Shown here: positions 9,733-43,901 of the stretch, piece by piece
How the letters are laid out: the number at the start of each line of letters is the position of its first letter
Position numbering within the stretch: the stretch's first letter is position 1
Source of the DNA: a virus
DNA: 49,248 bases
Strand: one strand, 5' to 3'
IMG/VR virus record: IMGVR_UViG_3300042398_000914
Coordinates: 1-49,248 of that record
Program-made: the position numbers and the translations under genes
The notes under the pieces: generated by a model
Databases searched by the model: none
The model's input: only the letters and a program-made list of their open reading frames with translations
Told to the model about the DNA's origin: nothing

Positions 9733-9733
9733 C

Positions 9734-10898: not shown

Positions 10899-11202
10899 GA
10901 GATAGCTCTTTTTCGCCGCGCGCGCGGACATACTTGATTAGGTATTCCATGATCTCCGGAGCGACTGCGCCAGCTGCGCCTATGGACGCATATAGCGCGC
11001 CCTTGCTTGTGATATAATCTTGGGCGACTAGGCCCACGATGGCTGCAGTAATCATGGCCGCCGCCCCACGCCTGATGATCCACCCAAGTGACAGCTTCTC
11101 ATCGCTGAGCAGCATGCGTGCGGCCATTGCCGCTCCGCCTAGGATGCCCGAGATGACCGAGTCCTTGGCCATGCCGGTCATATCGGTGTCAGGGGGTCTC
11201 AT
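10858..11202 (-). CDS. Putative holin
   Basis: The 114-residue product has three hydrophobic segments (about 15-32, 40-60, 67-93) rich in Ala and Gly, and ends in a very basic tail (LKTNKRKRRK). Size, topology and charged C-terminus fit a phage holin; the stretch WIIRRGAAAMITAAIVGLVA resembles the LydA-type holin family. It would form pores in the inner membrane at lysis. It overlaps the end of the giant gene by 14 bases and the start of the membrane/lipoprotein gene by 41 bases. In-frame ATGs at 11181 and 11172 might give shorter forms, as holin genes often have two starts. Confidence 0.65.
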   Translation of the reverse strand: MRPPDTDMTGMAKDSVISGILGGAAMAARMLLSDEKLSLGWIIRRGAAAMITAAIVGLVAQDYITSKGALYASIGAAGAVAPEIMEYLIKYVRARGEKELSHATLKTNKRKRRK

Positions 11203-14200
11203 CGGTATCCTTTATTCTGGGTAGCATTTCACGCTGTCTGAGCATGTGCGCCAGCCTCTTTACGCCATTGGTACTGATTGGCTCGCCTCGGCCCGCATCC
11301 GCGCCGGTGATCTGCATGAGGGGGATGCCCTCAAGCACCCTGCGTCGGAACTGGATATCCATTTCCTTGGTACGCTTAAGAGGCGTATGCACCATCACGC
11401 TGTTAAGCGGGTTGGTCATTCGCATCACGTAAGCTGCGGCGGCGGCAGGATCGAGATGAGCCCGAGGGAAGTACATCTTGACGAGGCCTTTGACGTGCCT
11501 GTCGTCACCAAGGCCAGCGTGGAACCATCCGCCGCGCTCATTTCCTCTTCCCTTCGCGCCGTATACCATCGGCTGAGCCATCGCGCCTTGAGGAGCTATT
11601 TCGACCGGTATCTTTTCGCCGGAATGTCCAGACGGACCACCCGGGACGTAAGTCTGCGCCATCCTAGCGGGCCTGTTCATATCTATCTCCGCCTCGGGGC
11701 TGATCATGCCTTTGTTGATCATGGCCTGATTAATGGCATCCTGATTGAAGTTGCCATTATCAACGGCGTTGAACGAAGGCATCAGCTCGGTGGGCACATC
11801 TTCACCTAGGTGCGTCGGGATCAGTCCTCCCTCGATGTACTTCGCCCTGATACGGCCAAGCACGTCAGCGCGGAGATCATGTCCGATGACCTTTTCCGGG
11901 AATGAGCCGAAAGCGTTCTGCGTGAACGCAGACGTGGGGCCGACTATGCCGAAATCGACATAAGCTCCGACGGGGCCAAACTCTTTGAGGAACGTCTTTA
12001 TCATCCAGTTGCCACCCTTGTAGGAGGAAAGCTGAAGATACCTTTCTCGGAACGCCTCAAGCTGCCTAGGAGTAGCCGTGGCTTGGTCGATGACCTCGAC
12101 GGCGCGCCCGTTCTTGTCATTGATCACCAGCTTCGTGCCTTCAGCGCTGATCGTGGGACGATCGAACGCGTCTAGGGCGAAGTTGCGCCTGAACTCCATG
12201 CTGGAGCCCGGGGCAAGCAGATCCATCGAGTACATCGGAAGCCCGTAGTTTGCTATGTAGCCCCAGCCGGCGGAGTCGCCGGAAGGGCCGGCAACTGCGA
12301 ACAGTCCGGTGTCAGATCCAAGCTTGGCGGCCACCTTGTCGACGAGACCGCTGCTTCGCGAAGATCCCGGCTCGAACACAGGCTTTTTGCCCTCGTATGC
12401 GTGAGGCTTGGGCATGCCCTCCTTGAACGGATCCTTCATGTTCTCCATCTGCAGCTCCATCGACCTTATCCATGAGGCATCGAAGAAGTCAGAGGCGTAA
12501 TCCCTCATCTCTTCTAGGGCTCGTTTGAAGTGCTCGAACATGGTTCCCTCCATGTTGTTATGGCTGAAGCGACGCTGGGACTGCGACCCAAGCTCTCCGT
12601 CGATATCCATGGTGGCCATTCGGTGCAGGAAGCCGCCATGCGGACCCTCCGGACCATTGGGGTGCTTGCCTGTGGATTTTTCGTACGCGATAAGAGCTCC
12701 GCCCACGAACTTGGTGAACTGGCCGGGCTCATTGGCAAACTGATCGGACGACACGATCCATCCTCGGGGGCCACCGAACCTGATGTGCATGTTGGGTTCT
12801 TTCAGTCCACCACCGCGCTGCAGCTGGTACGTGGCATCTAGGATGCCTACGCCATGTGAGCCATGGTTCATGGAGTCCAGCACGTTCATGATAAGCTGGG
12901 TGCTCTTGTAGGTTCCTTCCGCCACGCCGGGTATGACGTCAGGGAATATGACTTTCTTGCCTTTAGGCGTATCGGCGTAACCGGAGCTGTTGGTGTTGAA
13001 CACCTCCTTGACCTCTTTCCTCATCGCGGCGATCTCAGCTTCCTTGGCCTTGGCCATGTCTAGGAACTTGGGGCCCTGCGACATTGCCGCGAACACCTCC
13101 ACGACATTCTTGGCGAAATCACCGGCGGCCGATCCCGGGTGCCTGTGGTAAGGAGCTGCGTAGACACGTATCTCTCCGTCACTAGCTCCGGCCCTTTTGA
13201 TCTCGCGGATGTAATTGGCGAAATCCAATCCGTCCGTGAAGGTCCTGAACGTGTTATTGGTACCTGCGCCGACGCCAAGCTTGTTGCCATTTGCGCCAGC
13301 GTCCACACGGACATAGATCATATTGGACCTGTCGGCGGGATTGGGAAGGTTTGCTGCGACGTCCTCAATCATTCGCTTGCTGTCTGTCGCGCTGATAGCA
13401 TCTATGGCCGTCAGGAATTGGCTCACAAAAGGATCGCCCCTTCCTTTGACGTCTCCGAACGCCGCGGCGGCCGAAGCGAACGGCCTCACTTCGGAAGGCA
13501 TCTTCTTCATCTGATCTAGGATCACGAGAACAGCTTTGCCTATGTATGACTTGCTGTCGCCGTATTCTTTCCTGATCCGCTCAATGGTCCTATCAACCAA
13601 GGCCTCGTAATCTATGGCTCCGCTTCCTTCCACATACGCAGCCATCTGCATGGCAAGCTTCTCGTCCTTGACCATAGCCCTAGCCACATGCGATGCTACT
13701 GTGTTGCCAATGTCATTGGCGCGCTTCCCGAGATTGTTCAGTCCCTCGACAAGAGCCCTTTGCGGACCATGAAGCCCCATCGTTTGCATCGACCTAGCTT
13801 CGTTGCTCAGGGCGTCGTATCCCTGAGCCCTTAGCGCTTCGACGCCGCGGCCTATGATCGATTGAATTATGTTGAAGTGCCTGTTTATGACCGGCGCCAG
13901 TTCGTCATTCGCGATCCTTGACTGGTCGGCCCTGAACTCAGCAACAGCCCTCGGGTTGACCTGACCGGCCATGTCCGGATCGGCGTGCTTGGCGTTGTTC
14001 ATGTTCTCCGTGATGCGAGCCTTAATGCGGTCCCATATCTCAGGCTCCACCATGTCCTTATCAAGGTCAGGGTACATCCTGACCATGTCGATCAGCTCAT
14101 GGTCGAACTCGAACACGAATATTTCCTTAGGCGCGGGGGCGCCTCCGGTCATCCTAGATATGGAAGCCCTTATGCCTTCAGGCACCTTGGATTTTCTGCC

Positions 14201-17200
14201 CGTATTGCGGAGGAAGGCCGGGACGGCTTCATGCATCATGGACCTTTGGAACAAGTCGGTCTGATCTAGGAATAGCTTTGCGGCCAAAGAGTCGAAGACC
14301 TTGGTACCCGTAGATATGCTGTTGAGGTCGGCCGGCCTGCCGATGATGCTCACAAGCTGTCCGACGGCCTTCTCTTCAGCGTTGTCCGCGAGAGCTCGCA
14401 TCGATGCGTGGTCTGCCACAAGCTTGGCCAGCTCGCCAGACCTGCTTTGCGCGGCCTTTTCGGCTGCATCGGCCGGCAGGAACATCGCATCTCCGGAAAG
14501 CTGGCCGAATATGTCGATGTTCTGGAACACGTCCGATTGGATCTCCTCAAGGAGAGCTACAGGCTCTCTTCTGAAGCCGAGCGCGAACTCGCCTGCCGGG
14601 TCGATGCCCATCAAGGACGCAAAGCCATCCAGCGTAAGCGCCGAAGTGAGCATGCCCCATGCAAAGCGAGAGTGGCCAAGCTCAAATGCTCCGCCGCCTC
14701 CGGTCATGTTAGTTCCATGAGGCATGGATCCGGAGAAATGCGTACCATGATGACGGCCGCTTTCTTTTTCCATCCTTTGGGCTGCCGTAAGCCTAACCTC
14801 CATTACTCGCTCAGCTGTTTCGCGCATGGCTTCGAGAGCCCCGATCCTTTCTTTCAGCTTTTCGGCGTTGGGGTGTCCGTCTTCTATCTGGGTCTTGGCC
14901 GTGATTATCTCGGCTTTTATCTCTTTCAGGTATTCCTTCATGGTGGCCATGCCGGCCTTGTCCGCGAAGCGAATGATAGTCTGGTAATGCTGCTCATAGG
15001 CGCCAGCGACGTAGCTCGGGTAGCCAAAGCTTCCATAGTCATGCAACGACTGGCCTAGGTCTGCGTAGCCGGATCCATATCCGAACTCCTTTGAGGTAAG
15101 CTGATTGCCCTTTGCGGCGTCGAGAAGGTCTATCGTCTGCTTCGCAAATCCCGTGCCGCCCGGGAACAGTTCATCCGGAGCCATCAGCCCCTTGATGAAA
15201 GGCTGCACCTCTCCGAACTTGCTGAACAGGACGCCCATTGCGGAGTCTTGGGACATTGCCCTGATCCTCTCATTGAGGTCCATCCTAGTAAGTTCGAGAT
15301 TTCGCATCTCGTACGATGTGAAGCCGTTGTCCTTCGGGTTCTTGGCGAGTTCTTGCAGCTTGGCTATTATAGCAGCCTGATCCGCATCTATGGCTTCCTG
15401 ATCGGACATTCCTAGGGCCTTCGCGAAATCCGTAAGGCTTTGGTCTATGATGGCGATCAGCGGTATGCTGGCTTGCTTTTCTTCGTCGGTTCGGGACAGC
15501 GCTTCCATCTTGTCGCGCATGTCGAACAGGTTTTGCACCGCGTTGATCTGATTGGCCCTAGTCTGAAGCCTAGAGTCATGAATGAACGGGGGCACGAAAT
15601 GGCCCTTGCCGCCCACGCTGCTTTGTTCGGGCAGTCCGAGCGCGGCAAGCTGCTGCGCGGCGTGCATGCCATAGAAGGCGGGCGAAGCCCTGTGCACTAT
15701 GGGGTATGAGGCGGCGACGAACTCAGCAAGGTCCTGTCTGCTGAGGGATATCTCGCCGTAATTGGCAAGCATATGGCCTAGGCCGGTCTGCCTGATCTCA
15801 TCCTTGGTCACGCCATTCCTAGAGAGAACGGCCAGCCACTCTGTGGCCGGCAGGTGCGTGAAGTTTTTATACTTCGGAGACGCATGGGTGCCACGTATGA
15901 TGGCATTCATGGCCTTGGAGGAGAAGTTTAGGGCGCCCTGAGGCAGGCCTGCGTTCACTTTCCTGCGCACGATGGACTCAAGCTCCTGCATGCTTGCGCC
16001 GGTGATCTGGTGAAGGCTGATGGGCGGAGTGTCGAACTCGACGTGGGCATTCTTCCCGAGCGCCTTGCCTAGCTTGCGGGCCTCTTCAATAGACATGGCC
16101 ATATCCAGATCGCCGACCCTATGCAGGCCGGAGGGAGTTAGGGCTTCTTGGAACGCTCGGCCAGACTGAGGTATGACCCTGTCGATGCTCCTGACTCCGG
16201 TATCAGGGAAGAACTTGTCAGTTCCGCCCTCCTTGGGCCTTTCGATGACCCTGAAATCTCCGCCGGACAAAGCCCTGACCAGCATCGAGCTGGTGGCTTG
16301 CGCAGCCACCTTATTGGAGTAGGCGATGGCTTCCGCTTCAGTCTTGAAGGCGATAGCCCTCTTGCCGATCACGAGCCCGCCTTCCGGGTGCATCATGGAC
16401 GGGCTGTTTAGCTCGACGACATAGGGCCTGAAATTGACGTCATCCTTGGGGCCGGTGCGCTTCCACACCTTGATGCCATTGGCAGCCTTGGAGTCCCATG
16501 CATGCTTAAGCAGGTCCGGCCTTCCGGGGAATAGGCTAGCTATGGCTACGCCTGTGTCTCCGCTTACGGACAGGGTCCTTTCCGTGTCAGGCAGGAAGTA
16601 TCCGCCCTCTTCTCCGGCCATCTTGGCCGCGGCCGCGAACACGTCATTCCATAGGTGCGGGTCCTGAGATACACCAAGCTTTACGCTGTCCGTAAGACCG
16701 GCGAGAGAGCCCATGTTGTAAGCACCCTTCTTATTGAAAGGCATCAAGCCGATCTTCGGATCGGGCTTTTCGACATAAACGCCGCGGTCGAAGCGGCTAG
16801 ATCCTAGGCTGGCGTCAGGGAACAAGGTAGCCGCGCGGGCGCTCCTCTCGCGCTTTCCGGAGTCCGTCATGGCGTAGCCGATCGACGGATCGACATGCAG
16901 CGTCATGAGGGTGGCCGCGATATCTTCGACGCTCAGCCCGGCCGGCAGGATGATCGTCATGTGGCCGCTGGGGGCGTTTACGTCCTGTATGGACGCGGCA
17001 TGCAGGGCCCTGCGCGTGAAGACCTTTTCCTTGTCCATGAGGAACGCCTTGAAGGCGTCGACTTCCATCCTGCCAGAGAACGAAGAGCTGGAAGGAAGTA
17101 TGGCGGATATGTCGTCTATGTTTCCGCGAGTGTGGTGGTAGCCCCTCTTGTCCCGGATGGCTCCATCGATATAGGCCTGCATTATCGCGGGATCATTCGG

Positions 17201-20200
17201 GTCAAACAGCCCGGCAAACGGGTGACCCATCATTGTCGCTGCGTCATTGGCCATCATCTGCGAAAGCAGGTTGGCCGGTAGAAGCAGGCCGGTGTTAGGG
17301 TCATAGCCTAGGCCTTCAGCCAAGCTGAAGCCATATCCGACCCTGCCTGCCCGGGTCGCCATGTCGTCCAGCTTGTAGCCAAGATGGTCGCCCGTGATAT
17401 TTACCATGATCCTGCCGTCAGGCAGCCTCTTCCATGCGTAGCCTTTTTTGGTGGCCTGCTCGCCGGCCCTGTAAGGGTCGGATAGATATCCAGATCCGAC
17501 TTCCTCGTCCAGCCTTTCGGTGTTACGGCCGGGAAGCTCGCTGGTCATGTCCGACAGCACGAACCCCTGCTTCTTGCGTTTGGCGTGAAGCGGGGAATAC
17601 AAGCTCTTGCTGATCGTTCGAGTGCCTCGCGCGTGCAGGTTTAGAACAGCCTCAGCGGTCTTGCCTCCAGACAAGTCTCCAGACACCTCCATTACGCCTG
17701 CGGAACCAAACGAGAGCTGGCCGCCGGCGGGAGCTATCTCAATCGTCTTAGACCCAGACCTCTGAGCCCTTCCGATTATGGAGTCAGCTAGGAAGCTGCG
17801 GATGACGCTCTGAGAGAGGGCGCTGTGCCCGCGCGCTCCGACGTCTACATCCATCATCCCAGCATCAGGGACTGGATCGGCGTGGATCATGTCCACCGGA
17901 TCATCCATCTCAAACATGGCTCCAAGGACTCCCAAGGTTCCTTCGTGGCGGTGCACCGAGAACTCTTCCTGACCCTTGGCACCGACGAGCGTCATGAAGC
18001 CGTCATAGGTCCTAGAGTCGTGGTAGTTGTGCCCATCAAAGACTATCTTGTCCCTGTAATCGTTGGACTGAAACTCGTCGTCGAGCAGGTCGGGAGAAAG
18101 CCTTATGGCTCCTTCACCATGCGTTCGGACTACGCCCTTTTGGTTGTTGCCGCGAAGGCCAGAAATAAGGCGATCGGTGCCGGACCTCTTAATTCCGAAC
18201 CTGCCGCCCTGCGAGTCCCTGTAGAGAGGAACCCTGATGCCTTCTATCTTCGAAAGCTCCCTTAGTGTGCCGGACATGCGTTCAAGCGAGCGCTGCATGC
18301 TGAACATGTCATGAACCGAGTGGAGCATCCGCCTGAATAGGTTGTGCTCCATCGCGTTCTTCTGATCTCCGTAGGCGCGGGGGTTGGCCCTGTCTGACTT
18401 TGATCCGCCGAGAACTATGTTCTGCGGATCAGTCCTCATTTTCGCGACCGGATCTATGTCGTAACAATCGACAAGGTCCACCCTCGAGGCCGTGTCCGCC
18501 ATCATGGCTTCGATGGCGATTTTCTCGGCCGCCGTAAACGGACTTCCGACCCTGTTTATGAGCTCTTGCTTGACAAATATCTGCCCGGCCAGCTGGAACA
18601 CTTGTTTCACCGCGTCGAAGCTAAGCCCGTTTAGCATGGATATGCGCCCGTTCTCCAGCATGTTCCTAACGTTGCTCTCGACCTGCATCCCTAGGGTGGA
18701 GTTTGAGTCAACGCCCTCCAAATAGGTCTCAAGGTTGGTCAAACTGTCGAACATCTCCTTGCCTATGCCTGCCTCTAGCATGCTTGAGAGTCCGCGTCGC
18801 GCGTAAGCCAATCCGATCGTCTGCATGGCCGCCTCGATGGACGCCATCATCCTGATCTGTGTCTTGACCTGAGACTCGGTCAGGCCTTCCACGGAATAAC
18901 TGTCTTTCCACCACTCCACGGGCGCCCAATTGTTCCTCACGAACGAGTCGAGCTTCGCGGCAAGCGCGGCGTTGTTGTCGTTGCCCCTGTACATCATCTG
19001 AGCCGTAGCCGACAGCAGCGAGGTGCCGTCAAACACGTGGGCAAGGTGGCGCATAAAGCCGCCCGCCTTGTAGTTCATCCTAAGTGATCCAAACAGGTTC
19101 GAAGGCCGGTGCAGGGTGGACAGGTAATACTTCGAGTTGTCGATCGTCTCAATCCACTCTCCATCAGGACTCATGAACTCTTCCATGAACCTTTCGGCGC
19201 CCTTGGACATGGCCCGCAGTATCCTAGTTGATCTGGTATCTGCGATGGCCTTTTCCATGGCTTGCGCGTCAAGGTGGGACACCTGAAGCGGAGAAGACTT
19301 CTGGTCGTTGGCCGTTTCCGAAAGCAGGTTTGCTCCGATGGCAAGCGTCCTAGACATGACGCGCATGGGCTGTGCGGCAGTAATGGTGGCCGTAGTGGTG
19401 TTATCCCTCTTGGCCAAAGCGTTGATAACCTTGGCTTCGACGTGGTCCGAGGTGGCTCCTAGCGCCTCATAGGTGGAGCCGACAACCAGCGCCTCGCCCC
19501 TGACATACGACCTGACGAGCGTGGCCTGAGCCATGGGCTTGTACCCCGGAGACTTGATGCGATCTACGTCATGGGGCATGTTGTAGTAGCCCTGATCCGT
19601 CGCTACGATATTGCCAAAGCCTACGTTATGAACCCCTTGGGTGACGCTTTCTGCGATAGAGAGGAGGGCTTTTGCCTTTTCGAGCTGAGGGCCGGCATCA
19701 GGGCCAGATATCACAGCCACGAGCTCAGGCTTTTCGGTGATAAGGCTCATAAGAGAGCTGGCAGATATGCGGCTTGCGCCCTGAAGCGCCGATAGCTTGT
19801 GCTCGACTCCCTTGTCTCCGGAAAACCTGTCTATATGTGCCAGCAGCGCGTTGGCCCTGAGGACCAAAGCTCGCTGCGCAAGGATGGCGGACTGAACGGC
19901 GATCGGATACCTTTCTTGGTTCGATTGCAGGGCCTCCAAACTGGTCGGGTTGATGTTGGCCGCTAGGAAGTTGTCGGACTTCTCGAGCTCAGCCTCGTTG
20001 CCGCGGGCAAGCCTGACCACTCCTCGCTCCGAGTTGACCTCGATGATCGTAGGAACGTCATCGCCGGCGCCAAACTTGATGCTTTTGTGCATACCTGCGT
20101 AGGCATTGCCCGTGAAGCCTTCGATCGGGCTTGCCGTGTTCCTGCCCATGCGGGGGTAAATCGAGGCCCCTGCCATACCAGACTGTATGCTTCGTACGTT

Positions 20201-23200
20201 GGCGACGTCGGCAAAGGCTCGCTGAGCGCCACCCATCAGGCCGTGCATCACTATGGTTCCGGCAACAGGGGCGTCTCCTACGGCCCCATAAAGCCTGTTC
20301 ATCAGCGTCACATTGGGATCATCTGCGCCAGCGTATCTGGCGTTCGTGGCTCTGCCCCTGAAGTCACGGGCCGACTCATGAGACCACACCTTGTCTCCGT
20401 TGGACAGGGTGCTGGACGAGAACGAGTCTTTCATGCCCTCATCAAGGGCGTTGGAGTACAGCTCGAACAGCAGGTCCTGAAGGCGCATGCTATGCTTGCC
20501 GGACTCCTTGGAGATATCATCGCCCGCCTCGACAGCCCTAAGCATCATATGGCCAAGCTTCTCGGCCATGGGCGTCAGCTTGACCAGCAACCTCTCAAGC
20601 CTAGAGGTGAACCTGATCATGGCTTCCGTGGACTTTCGCTCCCTCTCTTGCCATCCTGCCCCTCCGTATCCATCCGACCCCAGCGAAGAGCCGGACATGC
20701 TCATGTCTACCTCTTTCTTGACTAGCATTCCGGACAGGCGCAGAGGATCCCATTCGACGGGAAGGCTATTCTCATCGGGGTACTTCTTGACCAGCTTGTC
20801 GATGATCCTCTTGATCACCTCCTCGCCGCGCACCTTGCCGAGCATCTTTTTGATGCCCGGGGTGGCCTGATAGCTAAATTGTATCGCGGTGGAAATCACA
20901 TCCATCATGAAGAACCTGCTCGCCGCACTTCCGGTCGGAGTGCTTTCGCTCTTCTTGGCGAATATCGACGTAAGCGGACTCGTACCCCTGTCTCCGAAGG
21001 CGTGATTGATGAAGTGGCGCACGGCATCGGCGTAAATATCATCCCCATCTACGGCCTCCTTGCTCAGGGCTAGATCATAGAGCTCCTTGAATGTTAGGCC
21101 GGCACCCTTTTCCTTCATGGCCTTAGCAAGTAGCTCCTTCATCTGGAAGCCGCCCTGATACGAAGACAGCATCGGCACCTCGTGCAATACGGCGACGATA
21201 TCGACGAGCTCTCCTATGCTGAGCTCAGAGCCCTTGAACTTGTCCTGTATGTCAAACACCCTTGCCGCGTGCAGCTCAGACTCAGGCACGCCGGCGCCCT
21301 TCAGGATGTCGGCCAACTGATCTGCCTTGATGACCAAAGGTATGCCCAATCTATCCGCCGTGTATAGGGCGTTGAGGACAGCGCTTCTATAGCCTATGGT
21401 GTCCTCGACGTGCACAGTCGCGCCCATTGCCTTGGCGACGTCTTGGATCGTGACGGACTTGCCGTCTCCTGTGAGCCCGGCCATAAACGCGATGGGGCCA
21501 CCCAAGGCGTTGTAGGCTCCGGTGGCCGGCAGGAAATCGTTTTCTAGGACCAAGTCCGCGACAGGCTGGACGTTTGCCCTGAACTGCTGCTCGGTGCCGC
21601 GGAAGTTCCCGAACTGCTCCATCGCTATGTTGGGCTGTCGGCGCAGGTTTTGAGCGCCTATCTGGGCCTTGGCTAGGGTAAGCTGCTCGACGCCGGTAGC
21701 TAGGCCATAGGTGTTGGTGAAGCCCTCAACCGAGCCTCCGGGGAGTCCGGACAAGGTACCGACCTCGCTGACATACACAGGCAGTCCGTCGGCGCCTATC
21801 CTCCATCCCTTGGAGTTATAGGTAGCCTTTCCGTAGCGCATCAGGTCGCTGTTGATGTTCGATACGTAGTGACTGAGCAGCGCGGAGCGCGCGATCATCC
21901 TCATGCCAGCGGCGAACATGTTGCCTGAAGCATTGCCGAAGATGCTCACGTTCATGCTCTCCGATCCTGCAGAGCCGCCGATCATTCTAAGCGTGGGGCC
22001 TCGGGTGGAAGAATACCCTTTCATCATCTCCGACTCCAGCCAACTGGCGTAAGACGCTATGTTTTCATACTGAGGGACGAACTGGGGCATCTTGCTGGAC
22101 GCAAGCTCCGCCTCGCTCATGCGAGAGCGAGCCATCGTGACATTAGGTGCGAACTCTTCCTGAGATGACGCGTACAGCAGGGACTTGAGGTCGTCCATCA
22201 GGGTGTGCGCAATCAGGTAAGAATGAGACGCGGTGTGCGTCTGGGGTCTGACTGCGGCTGAGTACTTAGAGACGGCTAGGTTAAGCCCGGCGCTTACCTC
22301 GGCCCTAAGGACGCCAATCTCCCTGTCATACGTATCGCCCATTGCTGAGTTTACGTAGTCGGTCATGGCAAACGCATCCCTGTTATGCTGATCAACCAGC
22401 TTGTATATGGAATGCATGGCCGAGAACGCGCCAGATGCGTCATACTTGGGAAGAAGCTTCGAGTAGGCGTCCAGCTGGCTCTTTATGTTCTGAGACCGCT
22501 CGGCTAGCTTGATTAGGCTTTGAACGGCCTCCGCGTATCCTTCCTTCTTGGTCGAAGATATCACGGCTATGGCCATGTTTATCCTCGGCATCATCTTCTC
22601 TATCAGGGCGACCTGATTAGGTATGACCCTGTTCATGAGATCTACCGCAATAGGCGCGTCGAATATCCTATCAAGAGACCTCTTGATTGATGCGGGATCC
22701 TGCGACTCTATCATCGATCCGCCCGCCATGCTCGCCGTCATCCTGATCAGGTTCTTGCTGGAGCCGTAGATCCTATCTACGGCATCCATGAGCTTGCCGT
22801 CCGCGTCGGAGTACTTGTGGTACGAGTAGCCATCGAACGCGCCTTCGACAGAGCCTGCCGCCTGAGCGCTGTTGCCCGGGACGGAGATCTGGTCGGATCC
22901 TCCGAAAAGTATGGGCAGGTTTATTAGCCCTCCTGCCGTTGCGCTTCCGAATATGCTATTCACCTGCGTGGGGGCCCTCTCCCTCATCGAGCCCAAGAAC
23001 GTAGAAGTGCTCACGGCATCAATCCAAGTGGCCGGCATCATTCTTTCGGACGACACTATGGCGTGCTGTATCTCATGAAGCATGACCCTCCTGAACCTTT
23101 CAGCTTTAACCTCGGGGCTGAACAGGGACGCATAGGCAACGCTCGACTCGAAGGCTCCGGCCACATCTTCTTTCATGACCCTTTCGGATATCACATCTTC

Positions 23201-26200
23201 GAGAAGGAACTCGGCTCCGATGGAAAAGCCTCCAGCAATAGGCCTCCAAGACGCTCCGGCCGAGTCAGGGTCAATAGACACCTCAGCTTTAGCTATGCCC
23301 GGGTAAAACGCGTATAGCTCCGGGTGGCTTATCACGTCGCTCATCTTGAGCTTCACCTTGCTTAGCTCATTCCTTACGCGCTGCCCGATGCCGGTTTCCA
23401 TTTCCGCCTGCGCGGCAGGGTCCCCCATTCTGCTGCCAATCATTGCGTCCACATATTCATTCACCGCGGTCATTCCCCCGGTTATGCTTTGAGCTATGAC
23501 CTCGACCGGAGAGCCGCCGAACTTGGCGAGATTGATTTCAGCGCTAGAGTCAGACAGCTCGAAGTAATCGAACATCTGGCCCATGCTGTTGGTCATCCTG
23601 CCTATCAGCCCAAGGCGGAGAAGCTCATCTTTTCTCGATTGATCCAGCTGCCTGATTGCGTCTGCGCCCGTGATCATCATGAGCGGAGAGCCTTGGACAG
23701 TATCAATCTTTGCGGTTCCATAGGGGACCCCTTGGCCTGTCTTGCCAGAGAGCTCGACGTCGGCTTCCATGGTCCTATATTGCATGGAGTATCCATCGTC
23801 GACTGCCGCTACGCTGCCGGTCTTTATGAACTGCCTCAGATCCCTGAGGTATTTGTTGGACGCGGGAGTGAGCTTGGCCTGCTTGACGCCCATAGACCTT
23901 AGGAAAGAATGAGCTGCCCCTTGCCCCGGGAAAGAGTCGGTGTCTAGTCCGGCCTTGAATAGGTTCTCGTGGATGGAAAGCGCTTGAGCTATCCTGAGTG
24001 CTCCATTCATGGGCTCTCCGGCGTATTGCTGCCTCTTTGTCTCAATGTACCCATGGGCAAGCTGTTCCATGATGACCATGTTTTCTCCTGCGATACCTGC
24101 GGCTCGTAGAAGGGTCGTAACCTCGGCGCTCCTTATTTCAGATCCTTTGGCCATCTGCTGAAGCCTTTCGGTAGCGGTCTTCCACTTGTACCCCATCGCC
24201 GCCCTGAACGTCTCTTCCACCGCTTTCACGGCTGAAGGTATCATGGCGGTAAGCGACTTCTCGCCATCCTTGCTGGCGAAGAACTGGAGCGCCAGCGCGG
24301 GCATGACCCCATTCCAGTTGCTTTCAGAAGGCGTTATGCCGGCGCCAGACCTGCGCAAGCTTCCGGGATCAGAAGTGACTAGCGCGTCTCCGCTCATGTT
24401 CGCCATGAACGACCTTACGGAGTCTCCGGCCGCGACTATGTGCGAGACCTTGGATATGTCTATGTCGCCGGTCTTGGTGGAACTGTGCGCGAAAACCATC
24501 GCGGGTATTCCCAAGGAGGTAAAGTGCATCGCCCTTTCGCTTGCGATCTTCTCAAACCTAGAAGGGTGGTTCCTGTTTACGTTCAGCGGGGAATAGACGG
24601 CAGGAGTCAGGGGGGCGTTAGGATCGCCACCGCGAAGGCCGGACACAACTTCTCCCATGGTTGGAGGAAGGGTGTAGAAGTCGGTCTTTTGGTCTTCGGC
24701 GCCTTCAAGCAGTCCGGTCTTTGCCCTTATCTCAAGCTTGCCGGGCCTAAACATTCGGTCGTCCAGAGACTTGAACTCGTGATATATCATGCTCTGGTCT
24801 TCGGTTACTCGCATGATAAGCGCCAGCGTCCTTACGTAATCCAACTTGTTGGCTTCCGTGGGGTCTCTCTTTATCTCGTCGGCTATTATGGACAGGGCCC
24901 CGTACAGATCCTGCATGGACACGACCCTCATCACATCCTCGTCGGACAAGTCCAGCATAGCCATTGCGGACACGAAACCCTTCTTGGTTCCGTCTTCTCC
25001 GGTGCGCAGCTTCCCCTCCTCATTAAAGAAGCCGGCCACGGACTTGGTGAACATGCCTCCCCTTGCCGCCAGCTTCTCGAGCGAGCTTAGGTACCTTTTG
25101 ACCATCTCGCTCGCAGGGCCTTCCTGCATCTTTGCCTGAGCTTTGATGGCTCGCTGCTTTCTGTCTCCTTCCGGCAGCATTTCACCGGCCCGCTTGGTTC
25201 CGGAGCCATCAAGGAACTCGCGCATGGCGGGAAGCAGATCCTGAATGCCAGACGCTTCGCTATGGAACCTCCAAAACTCTCCGCGTTGAGCTCCGATTGA
25301 AAGAAGCCTTGCCACGAGCTGGTCTCGCTTAATTCCTTTCGGGGCCAAGGTAGTTACATCCAGATACAGCGGCGTCTCAGCTCCCACCTTGTCGTCGTAG
25401 AACTGCTTGCTCTTGGACTCCATCGCGCGCTGGACATACTGGCCGACCTCGGGGTCATTGACCATGTCAGGCGTGACAATGAAAGAGTTAAATGCCGACT
25501 GCCACCGCTTAGGAACATCATCAAACCCCTTGGTGAACGAGCGAGGCCTGAAGTCGCTCATGCTGATCGTCCTAGGCTTATTGGTCTCCCCGAACACGGC
25601 CCATCGTATGTCCCCGGCGAGGGTGGCCATGCCGAGTCCATGGCTTTCCAGCGACTTAGATATGGCAGCGTCCCTTTGACCCGTAGGCCCGGAAGCTCCT
25701 GCATACATGGCCTCCCCTAGCAGCTTGTAATCCCTTATGGAGCTTGCGTTGAACGCGGTCGGAAGGTTTATCAGGCCAGCCTTGTGCATGGCGTTTACCT
25801 TAAGTGCGTGAGAAAGCCTTCGGGCGATCTGGTCCTGCAGGAAGTCCTTGTCGTAGGCATACAGGTCCTTGAACCATTCCCTGTCGATGCGCAGGATCTC
25901 ATTGCCGTATCCTCCGACGACGTCCGTTCCTTTGGCCCTTCCAAGGTCAGGGTCGGTGATCGCGATCTGCGTATCCGACAGCTTCACTCCGTACTTCTTG
26001 CCATTGATCTCTATGTCCCTGTCGAACTCCTTGGCCTTGTCGCCAAGCATGGAGTAAAGGCTGATGAACCTTTTCGAGAACGCCACCTCTTCGCCCGGAA
26101 CCCTATTCCTATAGGGGTCGGTATTATCCGATCCGGATATCTGCTCGTCGATATGCTCGACGGCTTTCTTGCCTTGGTGGGCAGACTCGACGACCGCGGT

Positions 26201-29200
26201 GTGCAGTCCTCCAAGGTGGAACCTAGCGGCCCTCGTGGCCGTCTCGGTTACCATTTCTAGGTCGGCCAAAGTCTGATCGTGGTGTCCGGTATCGTCGATC
26301 ATCGGGGTCGACTGCTCGACCTTGTCCGCCTCGTCGATCTTTCCTAGCTCAGCTCCAGCTCGCTTGATGGCCGCCTTTGCGGTCTTAAAGACACCAACCT
26401 TGATCGCGAAAGGATTGTAGAGAGCGTAGCCGTTCTTAGTGTCGTAAATCTCAAAGCCATGGTTGTCCTTCAGGTACTTTGATCCATTGCCTAGGTCGCG
26501 CTCGGTGAAGCCGGTGATCTGGAAGTTTCTAGCGATGCCGTCGTAGCCCTGAAGATGTACGTACGGGAAGGGCTGCACGCTGCTGTGCACGTTCCAAGAC
26601 GTCGGGTGAACCTTAATGTCCGCCAAGGTGTCGAACCGCATCGTGAAGAACGGGCGGTTGGGGTCGTCTGCTCCGCCGGCGTATCCGTCGCCCGGCGTGT
26701 TGATAAACGCGTCATCCTTGCGCTTACGTCCACCAAAGGACTCATACATTATGTCGCGGACGCGCTCAGCTTGATCGCCGAACTCAGGCCTGAACAGATC
26801 GGCCGACGGCATTTTGGCTCCGGTAAGTCCAGACTGGTTGGTGACGTATTGGTTGAAGCGATCGACAAAAGTGCCGAAGTTATTTCCGAACAAGCTCCTG
26901 ACGTCAGGGCGCTTGAACATCTTCATCAGCCTTCGGTTGACGGCTGCTACGTCCACGGAATGGATCAAGACGCCTCCCTTGGGAGAGCGGAGAGGATTGC
27001 CTTCTGCGTCGTGCGTCTTGAGGGTCACCTCGACGCTATAGGGCATGAACGTCCTGTAAGTGACAGGAACGTCAGAGCCGGTAAGCCTGAACACTCCGCC
27101 TCCACGTCGAACCTGCTTGGTGTGCGCGAGCAGCGTGCCGGTAAGCACGTTAAAGGTTACATCCCCAACCCTGTTCTTCTCGGCGACCTTAACGATGGCT
27201 AGGAGCTCATTGAACTCCTGAGCGGTGAACGCGCCTGACTGCTGGATGGCGTTGAGCGTCTCAGCATTTGCGTTCTCCAGCTTGATGCGCTTCCCGCCGT
27301 CCGGAGTGGACTCTATGACCGGCCTGATCTGCTCGTTTACGTTCTGAAGAGAGTTTAGTATCTTATTGGCCTGCTCGCGCGAAGCTTCGTCGAGCTCAGA
27401 AGGCGACTTAAGGCGCATGCCGCCGGTGGGTATAGACTTGAATAGGTGAGTCTTGCCGTGCTCCTTGGCAAAGGCTTCCTGCCTGTAGGGGTCAAGGGTG
27501 GACACGAGAACCTCGCTGCGTGCGTATGCCTGCTTCAGCACGGACTCCACCCAAGAGTCCATGCCCGGACTCCTGATGACGACGCCGTCGTCGTACATGT
27601 AGGTCTCGATTGCCGGGTTTCCATTCTCATCGAACAGCTTGGGAGAGCCATCGGTGTTGGTGAACTTGGCCCTGATCTCTACGCCAGCCTCCTCGAGGGA
27701 AGATAGGATGCGACTACCCTTGCGGGCAGCCCTATTCTCGGCCCAAGCCCTTAGCAGGTTTCTTGCAGCCGGGTCCTTGACATACTTATCTACCGGGAAG
27801 ACATTGGACGTTCCAGCCGCGTAGTAGGCAAACGCCTCTTCCGCCATCGTGGTTGCGTCCATGAAGTCGCCAAGCACGTCATAGTTCTGCATGTCGACGC
27901 CCTTGCTAAGGTGACCCCTCATCCTCGTGAGGAGATTGCCATACCTGCCTTCGGCGTTCTTGGTTATCTTTTCTATGATGGCAGGGTCGGTCGGCTTTCC
28001 GGACGCACTCCAATCCTTGGCAGCTCCATAGCTTATCATCAGCGCCTGCCACGCGGCGTCGGGCATTACGCCGGCGTCCTTGGACGTTCCGAATATTCGG
28101 CCAGCATAGGAGGGATTGAATACGTCTCCCATGTACCTGCCGGTGGTCCTGTCTATTACGGAGTCCATCTCGGCGTTGGCCTCGACGACGGACCTGAACA
28201 GGGCGTGGGTTATCTCGTGGCGGGCCGTGGTGGGCCTGTATAGATCAGAGTTGATCGCGATCAGCCTCTTGACGGAGCCGTCGTTAAGCGTGATCTTCTC
28301 GAACATGCCGGCGCTGGTGCCCATGTTCTGGAACGCGCCCATGACTTTGTCGTAGTCGGCAGGCTTGATGTTGGACTCTGCCATCACGTTCGCGAACTCC
28401 TGAGGGCTGCTGCCAAAGTAGAACATCACATTGCCTTCACCGACCAAGCTGGCCTCGTGAGCTACTAGGGTGGACAGGTGCGAAAGCTCTATGGAAGTCG
28501 TCCTCAGGTCGCCGAACGTATTGACCTTGTCGTAGAAACGCTTGGCCATCTCCATGCTCGTCGGGCCCATGATGCGGCCAAACGAGGGAACGACATAGTC
28601 ACGGAAATTATCCAGTATCCTAGTGTCCTGAGGGGTGTACTGCGTGTAAGAGTGGAGGTGCCTTATGCTACCAGACAGTCCGCCCCACGCGGCGCCCATG
28701 CCAAGGCCGGCGCCCGTTCCTTCAGAGGGGTTGTTCATGTAGCCAAGGCCGGCACCGATCATGCCATCCCTGAACATGGTCTTGAGCGTGGCAGACGACA
28801 GAGACGGAGCCCATCCTATCGCGGCATTGAGGCCCTTCGAAAGGAGCTGGGCCTCCCGGCTCATCGTATCAGCTCCCTTTGCCGTGCCTGATGCCATTCG
28901 CTCAAGCGTGGTCATGCCAAGCGAGTCGGCCTTGACCATGGTCTTGCCGAGCGCGCGATCCACCATGTCTTGACCGGCGACTTGCATCACCTCGCCAAGG
29001 GCCTCGGCTCCGAAGCTGCGCAGGAAGCCGACGGCAGGATGCCTAATGCTATCGCCGACGACCTGAGCGCCCATCTCGACAACTTCAGCCGCGGCCATGT
29101 TTCTTACGGCGTTACCGGCGTAATCGCCCGCCAGCTGCGCGGCTGCTTGGCTGGTGCCATATACCGCCTTGAAGGGGGCTTGGGCGGCCTTGCCGGTTCC

Positions 29201-30094
29201 TTCTAGGGCATTGCCTAGGACTCGCTGTCCGAAGGCAGCGTAGCGGGCCGCGGTGGCCTCCGTCCAGCTTGCTAGAGTGCTGGCAGCCTTGGCTGCATGC
29301 GCCGCCTTGGATCCGGATCTGGCTGCGATCCTAGCTGCGGTCGCCGTCGTGGAAGATCCGCCGCTTAGTATGGCCTCCGGAAGATCCCAAGCTAGATAAG
29401 AAAAGCCGACTGCATACTTCTGGTCTACGTAGCTATTGAAGGTGTCCTTGTATCCCTCGGGAAGCATCTCGGCTATCAGCGAGTTGGTCTGGTAGGTTGC
29501 CCTATTGAACTTGCGCGAGTCGTGGAACTGGCGCATCGCAGAGTCAATATCTCCATCACCCTTGCCAAGCAGCATGTTTACGTAGCTGCGGAACTTAAAC
29601 AGCGGGCTAGACGGATCTTCTGACTCAAACAGGATGCCGTAAATATCCCTAAGGCCTCGGTAAGCGCCTTCAGCGCTTGAGGCTGCGAACTTGCCCGGAT
29701 CAGTAAGGGGATTGGGAGCGGAAGCTATGCCTTCGGCTATTTCCGATCCCATCTGGCCGAGCGCCTGACTCATAGGACCTATGATCTCAATGTCCTTGTT
29801 GCGCTTAAACTCCATCACCTTCCTGAATGCGTCCCTGCCCTGATCGTCGAAGGTAAACTCGGCCTCTTCGTTGGCCATGAAGTATTCGTATATGTCCTTT
29901 CCGGTCCACTCGCCTTCCTGCATCTGCTGGACAAGCGGATCCATGGGAGCCTGAGCCTCTGACTCCGCGCCAAAGAAATCAGGGAGGGCCGGCGTTATCA
30001 TCGGCACTCCCTGTCTTGCGAGAAGCTCCCTTGTCTTTTGTAGGTCTAGGTTATCTAGGTTGACCTGAGGTTGAGCTTCCTGATTGTTTTCCAT
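11189..30094 (-). CDS. Giant polyvalent virion protein, ~6,301 residues
   Basis: One uninterrupted frame of 6,301 codons. The start at 30094 (not the in-frame ATG at 30160) is chosen because it reads MENNQ in the context CTAATGGAAAAC, as in the upstream gene at 31118. Features: Ala-rich amphipathic N-terminus (to ~400); glycine zipper (444-475); HEITH at 626-630 with a later EEAFAYY (E752/E753), a zinc metallopeptidase pattern; a second motif HEIQH at 2340-2344 preceded by YAFYPGI, as in polyvalent phage proteins; P-loop GLTGDGKS at 2873-2880; EEIQSD at 5183-5188, a hallmark of DarB-like ejected proteins; ITGA motifs near 2138, 4695 and 6259. The rest has no similarity I can name. It follows the internal virion proteins, so it is probably packaged and ejected into the host to cut, modify or shield targets there. 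The codon use (AUA, AGG, CUA) differs from the early genes. Confidence 0.85.
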   Translation of the reverse strand: MENNQEAQPQVNLDNLDLQKTRELLARQGVPMITPALPDFFGAESEAQAPMDPLVQQMQEGEWTGKDIYEYFMANEEAEFTFDDQGRDAFRKVMEFKRNKDIEIIGPMSQALGQMGSEIAEGIASAPNPLTDPGKFAASSAEGAYRGLRDIYGILFESEDPSSPLFKFRSYVNMLLGKGDGDIDSAMRQFHDSRKFNRATYQTNSLIAEMLPEGYKDTFNSYVDQKYAVGFSYLAWDLPEAILSGGSSTTATAARIAARSGSKAAHAAKAASTLASWTEATAARYAAFGQRVLGNALEGTGKAAQAPFKAVYGTSQAAAQLAGDYAGNAVRNMAAAEVVEMGAQVVGDSIRHPAVGFLRSFGAEALGEVMQVAGQDMVDRALGKTMVKADSLGMTTLERMASGTAKGADTMSREAQLLSKGLNAAIGWAPSLSSATLKTMFRDGMIGAGLGYMNNPSEGTGAGLGMGAAWGGLSGSIRHLHSYTQYTPQDTRILDNFRDYVVPSFGRIMGPTSMEMAKRFYDKVNTFGDLRTTSIELSHLSTLVAHEASLVGEGNVMFYFGSSPQEFANVMAESNIKPADYDKVMGAFQNMGTSAGMFEKITLNDGSVKRLIAINSDLYRPTTARHEITHALFRSVVEANAEMDSVIDRTTGRYMGDVFNPSYAGRIFGTSKDAGVMPDAAWQALMISYGAAKDWSASGKPTDPAIIEKITKNAEGRYGNLLTRMRGHLSKGVDMQNYDVLGDFMDATTMAEEAFAYYAAGTSNVFPVDKYVKDPAARNLLRAWAENRAARKGSRILSSLEEAGVEIRAKFTNTDGSPKLFDENGNPAIETYMYDDGVVIRSPGMDSWVESVLKQAYARSEVLVSTLDPYRQEAFAKEHGKTHLFKSIPTGGMRLKSPSELDEASREQANKILNSLQNVNEQIRPVIESTPDGGKRIKLENANAETLNAIQQSGAFTAQEFNELLAIVKVAEKNRVGDVTFNVLTGTLLAHTKQVRRGGGVFRLTGSDVPVTYRTFMPYSVEVTLKTHDAEGNPLRSPKGGVLIHSVDVAAVNRRLMKMFKRPDVRSLFGNNFGTFVDRFNQYVTNQSGLTGAKMPSADLFRPEFGDQAERVRDIMYESFGGRKRKDDAFINTPGDGYAGGADDPNRPFFTMRFDTLADIKVHPTSWNVHSSVQPFPYVHLQGYDGIARNFQITGFTERDLGNGSKYLKDNHGFEIYDTKNGYALYNPFAIKVGVFKTAKAAIKRAGAELGKIDEADKVEQSTPMIDDTGHHDQTLADLEMVTETATRAARFHLGGLHTAVVESAHQGKKAVEHIDEQISGSDNTDPYRNRVPGEEVAFSKRFISLYSMLGDKAKEFDRDIEINGKKYGVKLSDTQIAITDPDLGRAKGTDVVGGYGNEILRIDREWFKDLYAYDKDFLQDQIARRLSHALKVNAMHKAGLINLPTAFNASSIRDYKLLGEAMYAGASGPTGQRDAAISKSLESHGLGMATLAGDIRWAVFGETNKPRTISMSDFRPRSFTKGFDDVPKRWQSAFNSFIVTPDMVNDPEVGQYVQRAMESKSKQFYDDKVGAETPLYLDVTTLAPKGIKRDQLVARLLSIGAQRGEFWRFHSEASGIQDLLPAMREFLDGSGTKRAGEMLPEGDRKQRAIKAQAKMQEGPASEMVKRYLSSLEKLAARGGMFTKSVAGFFNEEGKLRTGEDGTKKGFVSAMAMLDLSDEDVMRVVSMQDLYGALSIIADEIKRDPTEANKLDYVRTLALIMRVTEDQSMIYHEFKSLDDRMFRPGKLEIRAKTGLLEGAEDQKTDFYTLPPTMGEVVSGLRGGDPNAPLTPAVYSPLNVNRNHPSRFEKIASERAMHFTSLGIPAMVFAHSSTKTGDIDISKVSHIVAAGDSVRSFMANMSGDALVTSDPGSLRRSGAGITPSESNWNGVMPALALQFFASKDGEKSLTAMIPSAVKAVEETFRAAMGYKWKTATERLQQMAKGSEIRSAEVTTLLRAAGIAGENMVIMEQLAHGYIETKRQQYAGEPMNGALRIAQALSIHENLFKAGLDTDSFPGQGAAHSFLRSMGVKQAKLTPASNKYLRDLRQFIKTGSVAAVDDGYSMQYRTMEADVELSGKTGQGVPYGTAKIDTVQGSPLMMITGADAIRQLDQSRKDELLRLGLIGRMTNSMGQMFDYFELSDSSAEINLAKFGGSPVEVIAQSITGGMTAVNEYVDAMIGSRMGDPAAQAEMETGIGQRVRNELSKVKLKMSDVISHPELYAFYPGIAKAEVSIDPDSAGASWRPIAGGFSIGAEFLLEDVISERVMKEDVAGAFESSVAYASLFSPEVKAERFRRVMLHEIQHAIVSSERMMPATWIDAVSTSTFLGSMRERAPTQVNSIFGSATAGGLINLPILFGGSDQISVPGNSAQAAGSVEGAFDGYSYHKYSDADGKLMDAVDRIYGSSKNLIRMTASMAGGSMIESQDPASIKRSLDRIFDAPIAVDLMNRVIPNQVALIEKMMPRINMAIAVISSTKKEGYAEAVQSLIKLAERSQNIKSQLDAYSKLLPKYDASGAFSAMHSIYKLVDQHNRDAFAMTDYVNSAMGDTYDREIGVLRAEVSAGLNLAVSKYSAAVRPQTHTASHSYLIAHTLMDDLKSLLYASSQEEFAPNVTMARSRMSEAELASSKMPQFVPQYENIASYASWLESEMMKGYSSTRGPTLRMIGGSAGSESMNVSIFGNASGNMFAAGMRMIARSALLSHYVSNINSDLMRYGKATYNSKGWRIGADGLPVYVSEVGTLSGLPGGSVEGFTNTYGLATGVEQLTLAKAQIGAQNLRRQPNIAMEQFGNFRGTEQQFRANVQPVADLVLENDFLPATGAYNALGGPIAFMAGLTGDGKSVTIQDVAKAMGATVHVEDTIGYRSAVLNALYTADRLGIPLVIKADQLADILKGAGVPESELHAARVFDIQDKFKGSELSIGELVDIVAVLHEVPMLSSYQGGFQMKELLAKAMKEKGAGLTFKELYDLALSKEAVDGDDIYADAVRHFINHAFGDRGTSPLTSIFAKKSESTPTGSAASRFFMMDVISTAIQFSYQATPGIKKMLGKVRGEEVIKRIIDKLVKKYPDENSLPVEWDPLRLSGMLVKKEVDMSMSGSSLGSDGYGGAGWQERERKSTEAMIRFTSRLERLLVKLTPMAEKLGHMMLRAVEAGDDISKESGKHSMRLQDLLFELYSNALDEGMKDSFSSSTLSNGDKVWSHESARDFRGRATNARYAGADDPNVTLMNRLYGAVGDAPVAGTIVMHGLMGGAQRAFADVANVRSIQSGMAGASIYPRMGRNTASPIEGFTGNAYAGMHKSIKFGAGDDVPTIIEVNSERGVVRLARGNEAELEKSDNFLAANINPTSLEALQSNQERYPIAVQSAILAQRALVLRANALLAHIDRFSGDKGVEHKLSALQGASRISASSLMSLITEKPELVAVISGPDAGPQLEKAKALLSIAESVTQGVHNVGFGNIVATDQGYYNMPHDVDRIKSPGYKPMAQATLVRSYVRGEALVVGSTYEALGATSDHVEAKVINALAKRDNTTTATITAAQPMRVMSRTLAIGANLLSETANDQKSSPLQVSHLDAQAMEKAIADTRSTRILRAMSKGAERFMEEFMSPDGEWIETIDNSKYYLSTLHRPSNLFGSLRMNYKAGGFMRHLAHVFDGTSLLSATAQMMYRGNDNNAALAAKLDSFVRNNWAPVEWWKDSYSVEGLTESQVKTQIRMMASIEAAMQTIGLAYARRGLSSMLEAGIGKEMFDSLTNLETYLEGVDSNSTLGMQVESNVRNMLENGRISMLNGLSFDAVKQVFQLAGQIFVKQELINRVGSPFTAAEKIAIEAMMADTASRVDLVDCYDIDPVAKMRTDPQNIVLGGSKSDRANPRAYGDQKNAMEHNLFRRMLHSVHDMFSMQRSLERMSGTLRELSKIEGIRVPLYRDSQGGRFGIKRSGTDRLISGLRGNNQKGVVRTHGEGAIRLSPDLLDDEFQSNDYRDKIVFDGHNYHDSRTYDGFMTLVGAKGQEEFSVHRHEGTLGVLGAMFEMDDPVDMIHADPVPDAGMMDVDVGARGHSALSQSVIRSFLADSIIGRAQRSGSKTIEIAPAGGQLSFGSAGVMEVSGDLSGGKTAEAVLNLHARGTRTISKSLYSPLHAKRKKQGFVLSDMTSELPGRNTERLDEEVGSGYLSDPYRAGEQATKKGYAWKRLPDGRIMVNITGDHLGYKLDDMATRAGRVGYGFSLAEGLGYDPNTGLLLPANLLSQMMANDAATMMGHPFAGLFDPNDPAIMQAYIDGAIRDKRGYHHTRGNIDDISAILPSSSSFSGRMEVDAFKAFLMDKEKVFTRRALHAASIQDVNAPSGHMTIILPAGLSVEDIAATLMTLHVDPSIGYAMTDSGKRERSARAATLFPDASLGSSRFDRGVYVEKPDPKIGLMPFNKKGAYNMGSLAGLTDSVKLGVSQDPHLWNDVFAAAAKMAGEEGGYFLPDTERTLSVSGDTGVAIASLFPGRPDLLKHAWDSKAANGIKVWKRTGPKDDVNFRPYVVELNSPSMMHPEGGLVIGKRAIAFKTEAEAIAYSNKVAAQATSSMLVRALSGGDFRVIERPKEGGTDKFFPDTGVRSIDRVIPQSGRAFQEALTPSGLHRVGDLDMAMSIEEARKLGKALGKNAHVEFDTPPISLHQITGASMQELESIVRRKVNAGLPQGALNFSSKAMNAIIRGTHASPKYKNFTHLPATEWLAVLSRNGVTKDEIRQTGLGHMLANYGEISLSRQDLAEFVAASYPIVHRASPAFYGMHAAQQLAALGLPEQSSVGGKGHFVPPFIHDSRLQTRANQINAVQNLFDMRDKMEALSRTDEEKQASIPLIAIIDQSLTDFAKALGMSDQEAIDADQAAIIAKLQELAKNPKDNGFTSYEMRNLELTRMDLNERIRAMSQDSAMGVLFSKFGEVQPFIKGLMAPDELFPGGTGFAKQTIDLLDAAKGNQLTSKEFGYGSGYADLGQSLHDYGSFGYPSYVAGAYEQHYQTIIRFADKAGMATMKEYLKEIKAEIITAKTQIEDGHPNAEKLKERIGALEAMRETAERVMEVRLTAAQRMEKESGRHHGTHFSGSMPHGTNMTGGGGAFELGHSRFAWGMLTSALTLDGFASLMGIDPAGEFALGFRREPVALLEEIQSDVFQNIDIFGQLSGDAMFLPADAAEKAAQSRSGELAKLVADHASMRALADNAEEKAVGQLVSIIGRPADLNSISTGTKVFDSLAAKLFLDQTDLFQRSMMHEAVPAFLRNTGRKSKVPEGIRASISRMTGGAPAPKEIFVFEFDHELIDMVRMYPDLDKDMVEPEIWDRIKARITENMNNAKHADPDMAGQVNPRAVAEFRADQSRIANDELAPVINRHFNIIQSIIGRGVEALRAQGYDALSNEARSMQTMGLHGPQRALVEGLNNLGKRANDIGNTVASHVARAMVKDEKLAMQMAAYVEGSGAIDYEALVDRTIERIRKEYGDSKSYIGKAVLVILDQMKKMPSEVRPFASAAAAFGDVKGRGDPFVSQFLTAIDAISATDSKRMIEDVAANLPNPADRSNMIYVRVDAGANGNKLGVGAGTNNTFRTFTDGLDFANYIREIKRAGASDGEIRVYAAPYHRHPGSAAGDFAKNVVEVFAAMSQGPKFLDMAKAKEAEIAAMRKEVKEVFNTNSSGYADTPKGKKVIFPDVIPGVAEGTYKSTQLIMNVLDSMNHGSHGVGILDATYQLQRGGGLKEPNMHIRFGGPRGWIVSSDQFANEPGQFTKFVGGALIAYEKSTGKHPNGPEGPHGGFLHRMATMDIDGELGSQSQRRFSHNNMEGTMFEHFKRALEEMRDYASDFFDASWIRSMELQMENMKDPFKEGMPKPHAYEGKKPVFEPGSSRSSGLVDKVAAKLGSDTGLFAVAGPSGDSAGWGYIANYGLPMYSMDLLAPGSSMEFRRNFALDAFDRPTISAEGTKLVINDKNGRAVEVIDQATATPRQLEAFRERYLQLSSYKGGNWMIKTFLKEFGPVGAYVDFGIVGPTSAFTQNAFGSFPEKVIGHDLRADVLGRIRAKYIEGGLIPTHLGEDVPTELMPSFNAVDNGNFNQDAINQAMINKGMISPEAEIDMNRPARMAQTYVPGGPSGHSGEKIPVEIAPQGAMAQPMVYGAKGRGNERGGWFHAGLGDDRHVKGLVKMYFPRAHLDPAAAAAYVMRMTNPLNSVMVHTPLKRTKEMDIQFRRRVLEGIPLMQITGADAGRGEPISTNGVKRLAHMLRQREMLPRIKDTDETP

Positions 30095-32572: not shown

Positions 32573-32609
32573 GTTAATTATGGTGTATTCGGTTTAGTCT
32601 GTATGCAAA

Positions 32610-33680: not shown

Positions 33681-33681
33681 G

Positions 33682-43613: not shown

Positions 43614-43901
43614 TCATACGCCCGGTGAATTGCTTTGAGCCGCATTTGTGCCGGCCGTAGCCACGTCGCGACGGGATTGGAGCTCTACAAGCATGTCGTT
43701 TAGGGCGTCCAGACGGCCGGCGCTATGGATACGGGCCTCGCCAACAGTACTTGAGGCCATGACTCTAGACATTTCGATCTGCAAGGACATGTCTATGACC
43801 ACGAGTATGGCCTTGAACATTTCGTTGCATTGGAGGCTTTGGTTCTCCAGCGCGCGCTGAATGGCCATGTTCACTTCTTGGGGGTTCTTAGGTTGGCTCA
43901 T
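43614..43901 (-). CDS. Small helical protein between portal and scaffold (95 residues)
   Basis: A helical product (VNMAIQRALENQSLQCNEMF, FKAILVVIDMSLQIEMSRVM, RLDALNDMLVELQSRRDV) without a known family. The start overlaps the portal stop (ATGA), so it is translated with the portal. A 68-base gap to the scaffold gene follows. Small proteins here often act in portal or head assembly. Confidence 0.57.
   Translation of the reverse strand: MSQPKNPQEVNMAIQRALENQSLQCNEMFKAILVVIDMSLQIEMSRVMASSTVGEARIHSAGRLDALNDMLVELQSRRDVATAGTNAAQSNSPGV

Follow-up and report, generated by a model that had tools for sequence, protein, structure and literature searches.

Why would a compact phage devote two fifths of its genome to one protein, and why is this kept up across a divergent clade? 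The window analysed here is the whole stretch of a viral record from IMG/VR, 49,248 nucleotides in length, and a large share of it is taken up by a single gene on the minus strand. No publication on giant genes in phages of this clade turned up in the literature search. We examined the reading frame, its relatives, its motifs and its neighbours (Table 1).

The giant frame and its relatives

The minus-strand frame 30094..11189 contains 6,301 codons, corresponds to a chain of 0.686 MDa and is open from end to end. The first ATG of the frame is at 30160 (30160..11189, minus strand, 6,323 codons), the second is at 30094 and the stop is at 11189. Because the alignments of relatives begin at about residue 18-26 of the 6,323-codon form, and because the relatives' own start codons coincide with ATG 30094, the latter is the better start; the interval 11189-30094 given in the first-pass annotation matches this frame exactly. 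Third-position GC is steady across the gene (0.65-0.75). The other two forward frames over it carry 334 and 269 stops, and therefore the giant open frame is not due to chance. The two window ends, 1-387 and 48862-49248, share a 387 bp overlap in which 5 positions mismatch; the contig is therefore a circular map, complete at about 48,861 bp, and shows strain variation. The intact gene occupies 38.7% of this map, in agreement with the 39% proposed earlier. The contrast in size that had been drawn with known phage proteins holds as well, since T7 gp16 has 1,318 aa (9.9% of its genome) and the N4 virion RNA polymerase (vRNAP) 3,500 aa (15%).

Relatives were found by way of the major capsid protein, which gave 51 related IMG/VR loci. 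The giant gene, with an open frame, is present in 24 of the 25 related IMG/VR records searched, and the one record that lacks it is an 18.9 kb fragment. Counting only genes uncut by contig ends, the open frames have about 5,300-6,460 codons. Identity to the nearest relatives is 70-80% in the N-terminal blocks, and identity in the islands of distant relatives is 25-35%. Three reported 'stops inside' were alignments extending upstream of the start codon. In eight pairs, dN/dS was about 0.03-0.48 and mostly <0.4 in every 300-codon window with computable dS, indicating purifying selection over the full length of the chain. Related giant genes do exist in metagenomic phages, where the first-pass annotation had suggested looking for them, and the internal stops that it named as a reason to give up the gene were not seen in the relatives. 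When only the C-terminal 923 residues were used for the scan, no locus was returned, because exact peptide patterns were too strict in that region; whole-record searches did recover the C-terminal half. Prophages or hosts were sought in GTDB genomes with alignments A2 and A10, and none was found.

As the source is a metagenomic contig, an artefact of assembly or sequencing might be supposed to have joined several genes. The same frame occurs, however, in all 24 of these records, down to 25-35% identity and with the low dN/dS given above. The relatives' open frames refute the artefact reading, whose probability we put at virtually nil.

Selection is accompanied by strong local variation. In five close pairs, identity is lowest in a mosaic segment of about 800 residues, at ~1270-2080 in the pairwise comparisons and ~1290-2130 as delimited in Table 1: L061 and L076 are 40-60% identical there and about 99% elsewhere, while L066 and L068 are 25% identical within the segment and about 99% past residue ~1957. 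Residues ~1290-2130 had no Pfam or PDB match.

Table 1. Features of the giant gene and of its neighbours in the window
Feature	Coordinates	Strand	Basis or detail
Conserved N-terminal block, residues 60-560	28415..29917	-	Alignment A1
Putative metallopeptidase, residues 560-800	27695..28417	-	HExxH and conserved Glu 753
Most conserved block, residues 801-1290	26225..27694	-	Motif RVRDIMYETFGGRK..D...IN.P..GY
Variable mosaic segment, residues ~1290-2130	23705..26227	-	Lowest identity here in five close pairs
LPD23-like module, residues 2140-2200	23495..23677	-	hhalign, A4 vs LPD23 region of L149
'HPELYxxYP' and second HExxH, residues 2257-2350	23045..23326	-	Alignment rows, hmmsearch
Helical module 'FxSKAM..EWxxFxKxxGVSKDE.R.TGL', residues 4716-4800	15695..15949	-	Alignment, profile matches
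'GHxR...EEIQSDxFQ' module, residues 5135-5200	14495..14692	-	Invariant E-E-x-Q-S-D
Conserved C-terminal block, residues 5900-6050	11945..12397	-	GYxxxYGxP...DxFxRP
Holin-like gene, directly after giant	10858..11202	-	phrog_6384, E 7e-4
Four genes (355, 484, 356, 370 aa), all cysteine-free	30051..34794	-	Directly upstream of giant
Head closure Hc3-like protein (P22 gp10 type)	35609..36976	-	phrog_578, E 0.008, weak
Major capsid protein	41245..42582	-	phrog_1328, E 1.4e-35
Portal, SU10 type	43898..46132	-	PF23899, E 3.7e-7, 29.4 bits vs cut-off 30
Terminase large subunit (TerL)	46325..47965	-	phrog_2, E 6.4e-17; 33% identical to Phage C75C1

Conserved islands and probable kinship with polyvalent proteins

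The conserved parts of the chain form islands at residues 60-1290, 2130-2360, 2640-2970, 4205-4275, 4480-4800, 5090-5210 and 5720-6060, which are separated by long, poorly conserved stretches. Nothing significant was obtained with Pfam and PHROGs on the window protein, with Pfam on members of alignments A2, A3, A4, A6 and A7, or with PDB profile searches on eight segments of the giant; tblastn of three parts of the chain against 50,697 GenBank phage records gave no match. The earlier remark that most of the chain is unexplained was therefore right.

Within the N-terminal block, a Gly-rich stretch (residues ~443-477) resembles membrane-active segments of ejection proteins, and the block gave a weak hhalign match to residues 15-107 of CDS0003 of Phage C75C1 (score 37, P 0.0015). 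The first HExxH, at residues 626-630 (28219-28205, minus strand), is invariant or nearly so, and predicted model m1d4d349c27ca places both this motif and E753 on helices. Residues 560-1290 gave a fold model with mean pLDDT 72.6 and pTM 0.64. Compared with viral models (Foldseek, BFVD), it matched ten at E <0.001, the best at 5e-18, all with low TM-scores (0.16-0.42); several of the ten bear the names large polyvalent protein associated or ART-PolyVal-like. Among the fold matches are the uncultured Caudovirales proteins A0A6J5MBV1, A0A6J5R0Z9, A0A6J7X551 and A0A6J7XQW5 (BFVD/UniProt; E 5e-18 to 8e-12), two of which are named large polyvalent protein associated. These four are 15-19% identical to the giant with low TM-scores, and the likeness covers residues 560-1290. 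The same model had no match in the PDB; as no solved fold matches it, the putative zincin identity rests on the HExxH and the Glu.

In the second HExxH, 'HEIQHAI' (2340-2344), H, E, Q and H are invariant in 20 of the 20 rows covering the site, and HPELY..YP precedes it at 2257. By hmmsearch this region matched the phage proteins L146-L149 (E 4e-8 to 5e-10). The family profile of residues 4480-5210 also reached distant phage proteins. Of particular use is L149 (1,447 aa), which carries Pfam LPD23, then HPELF/HELQH, then VSKDE and then EEIQSD, in the order seen in the giant. Its hhalign scores were 62 (A4 against the LPD23 region) and 70, whereas shuffled sequences scored no higher than 26 and the reversed sequence 16-19; the Pfam LPD23 model itself matched 0 of 22 clade members. 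The VSKDE module (GVSKDE.R.TGL near residue 4765) is well predicted, with pLDDT 84-89. GHxR at residue 5140 and EEIQSDxFQ at 5183-5191 are invariant or nearly so, and the EEIQSD motif and the module order are common to proteins L146-L155. The fold model of residues 4480-5210 had a mean pLDDT of 58 and found no viral fold match; therefore no function is assigned to EEIQSD, a module that recurs among these proteins and had no Pfam match. In one of these proteins (L153:4183-10254, 2,024 aa), ART-PolyVal, VSKDE and EEIQSD are followed by a C-terminal Phage_Mu_F (MuF) domain. Two relatives, L071 and L072, carry a weak second VSKDE copy at window-equivalent residues 2910-2968 (E 2e-5 in L071). This hints at growth of the giant through duplication of a polyvalent core.

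The polyvalent proteins (Iyer et al. 2017, PMC5512222) are, like the giant, very large multi-module chains encoded beside or among phage late virion genes. HExxH sites that may be metallopeptidase-like and a candidate LPD23-like module are further points of resemblance, as is the module order, shared with the LPD23 protein L149 and in part with the ART-PolyVal/MuF protein L153. In contrast, no SNF2, methylase, RNAP, ART or kinase domain was recognised in the giant, and its modules are too diverged for Pfam. What sets it apart from known polyvalent proteins is its size (~6,300 aa), its genome share, the mosaic segment and the fact that no enzymes were recognised in it. It is probably a far-diverged relative of these proteins that works like them. 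A DarB-like methylase-helicase was rejected, as no SNF2 helicase or adenine methylase Pfam match was obtained with the segments or with the members of five segment alignments.

Cysteine depletion and the case for packaging and ejection

The first-pass annotation had placed the gene after internal virion proteins and before the holin. This order is seen in Table 1, where portal, capsid and head-closure genes precede the giant and the holin follows it. Among relatives, the 355-aa gene lies just ahead of the giant in 12 of 12, and the holin follows in 8 of 12.

A single cysteine occurs among the 6,301 residues of the giant. By comparison, 40 were counted in 6,474 residues of the window's other late genes and 27 in 2,075 residues of its early genes; at 0.6% cysteine, the giant would have ≤1 with a probability of about 1e-15. 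Known ejected proteins are equally poor in this residue: T7 gp15 plus gp16 have 0 in 2,065, N4 vRNAP 0 in 3,500 and P22 gp7/gp16/gp20 0 in 1,309; the two large proteins of Phage C75C1 in the same slot have 0 in 4,112. The four genes before the giant also lack cysteine, and a cysteine-free block before the giant was found in eight relatives. In the window and these eight, the cysteine-free run begins with the first or second gene past the Hc3-like one, while genes farther upstream mostly contain cysteine. The four are probable further internal virion or ejection proteins. Lack of cysteine in N4-like vRNAPs has been tied to passage through the tail and periplasm (PMC3715699, PMC3915230, PMC2784036); for T7, P22, C75C1 and the present clade, the pattern comes from our own counts and extends that literature. 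Where similarity fails, ejected proteins can be flagged by combining gene slot with cysteine depletion, and a cysteine-free gene run may be a general marker for ejection modules.

The slot after the head-tail genes and the cysteine depletion are common to the giant and the ejection proteins of T7 (gp14/gp15/gp16) and P22 (gp7/gp20/gp16), as are the run of consecutive internal protein genes and the Gly-rich segment. The giant is 5-10 times longer and has no clear sequence similarity to them, and no lytic transglycosylase domain was recognised. A T7 gp16-like protein was thus rejected (no kinship in sequence and no N-terminal transglycosylase domain by Pfam or hhalign), and so was kinship with the P22 ejection proteins (no clear hhalign similarity).

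Taken together, these results make it likely that the giant is a polyvalent-type internal virion protein, packaged in the head and ejected with the DNA into the host. Packaging and ejection had been proposed before and remain the best reading given slot, cysteine depletion and probable polyvalent kinship, from which we infer presence in the virion. The accompanying worry, that a short tail would let such a chain through only with difficulty, is weak. The T7 internal core contains 8 gp15, 4 gp16 and at least 8 gp14 (PMC8954989), and from these copy numbers and computed masses about 1.4 MDa of core protein is ejected; therefore, a 0.69 MDa chain present once or twice would not exceed that load.

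The phage is probably short-tailed, and its head may contain the chain in a few copies; at the start of infection the giant and the four cysteine-free proteins encoded upstream would be threaded through portal and tail. Lack of cysteine would permit unfolded passage through the oxidising periplasm without disulphides, an idea put forward for N4 vRNAP. After entry, individual modules might act on the host, in the envelope or in the cytoplasm. Cleavage of the chain itself or of host proteins may be the task of the two metallopeptidase-like sites, in line with what Iyer et al. suggest for polyvalent proteins (PMC5512222); the LPD23-like, VSKDE and EEIQSD modules could be further host-acting modules, and the mosaic segment could adapt the giant to host or competitor. 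On this account the giant would set the upper case for the size of chain that a phage may eject, and it offers thousands of uncharacterised residues in modules that probably act on bacteria. A bolder version, which we think rather unlikely, is that, in this clade, the machinery of ejection and the effectors of early infection have been gathered in a single cysteine-free chain as long as 6,460 residues, which would enter the host as one polypeptide and include one swappable host-tuned segment. If true, such a single-chain ejection machine would be an extreme, largely uncharted early-infection device.

Alternative readings and other features of the genome

The giant may instead be a polyprotein, cut by its HExxH peptidases or by a host or phage protease before or during packaging, with no 0.69 MDa chain in the virion. 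This is possible, though we lean against it. Phage C75C1 (OQ984151), the nearest sequenced relative by TerL (33% identical; capsid 27%), has proteins of 2,769, 375 and 1,343 aa in the same slot; the 2,769 and 1,343 aa pair is cysteine-free and shares with the giant a weak Gly-rich match, whereas the C75C1 slot is split over several genes and lacks HExxH or EEIQSD motifs. The poorly conserved stretches between the giant's islands would suit cleavage, and P1 DdrB is reported to be processed ahead of packaging (PMC5512222). Against cleavage, the single frame has survived deep divergence and is retained in at least 20 genomes, and N4 vRNAP, which has an HExxH site, is reported to be packaged uncut.

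The N4 enzyme (gp50, Schitoviridae) suggests a further reading. Like the giant it is very large, cysteine-free or nearly so, encoded by a late gene (in N4, that of a short-tailed phage) and provided with HExxH (one site in N4, two in the giant). The giant is 1.8 times longer, takes 39% rather than 15% of the genome and shows no sequence or profile similarity: in hhalign none of eight segment profiles rose above background against N4 gp50, PDB profile searches with the segments found no vRNAP chain, and no polymerase was found. An N4-type virion RNA polymerase was accordingly rejected and seems very improbable. A non-ejected structural protein of the tail, either tape measure or tail tip, would also fit a large late gene ahead of the holin, and tape measure proteins can be long. 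It is nevertheless improbable, since portal, Hc3 and capsid have the look of a short-tailed phage with no long-tail genes recognised in the window, and since the giant carries conserved HExxH, EEIQSD and other enzyme-like motifs, has mixed helix-strand structure in models, counts polyvalent proteins as probable kin and matches no PHROGs tape measure family.

Several other features were observed in the window. A 361-aa frame after the holin (9846-10931, minus strand) had no Pfam match and may be a lysis gene. The hexamer GGGAGC is repeated six times in perfect copies at 33859-33894, inside a cysteine-free late gene. A 23-bp tandem repeat at 4930-4994 lies within a replication initiator-like gene (4571-5317) and, by analogy with lambda O, may be an origin with iterons. 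Three tRNA genes are present: Met-CAT (2417-2492), Arg-CCT (9104-9175) and Leu-TAG (9652-9733).
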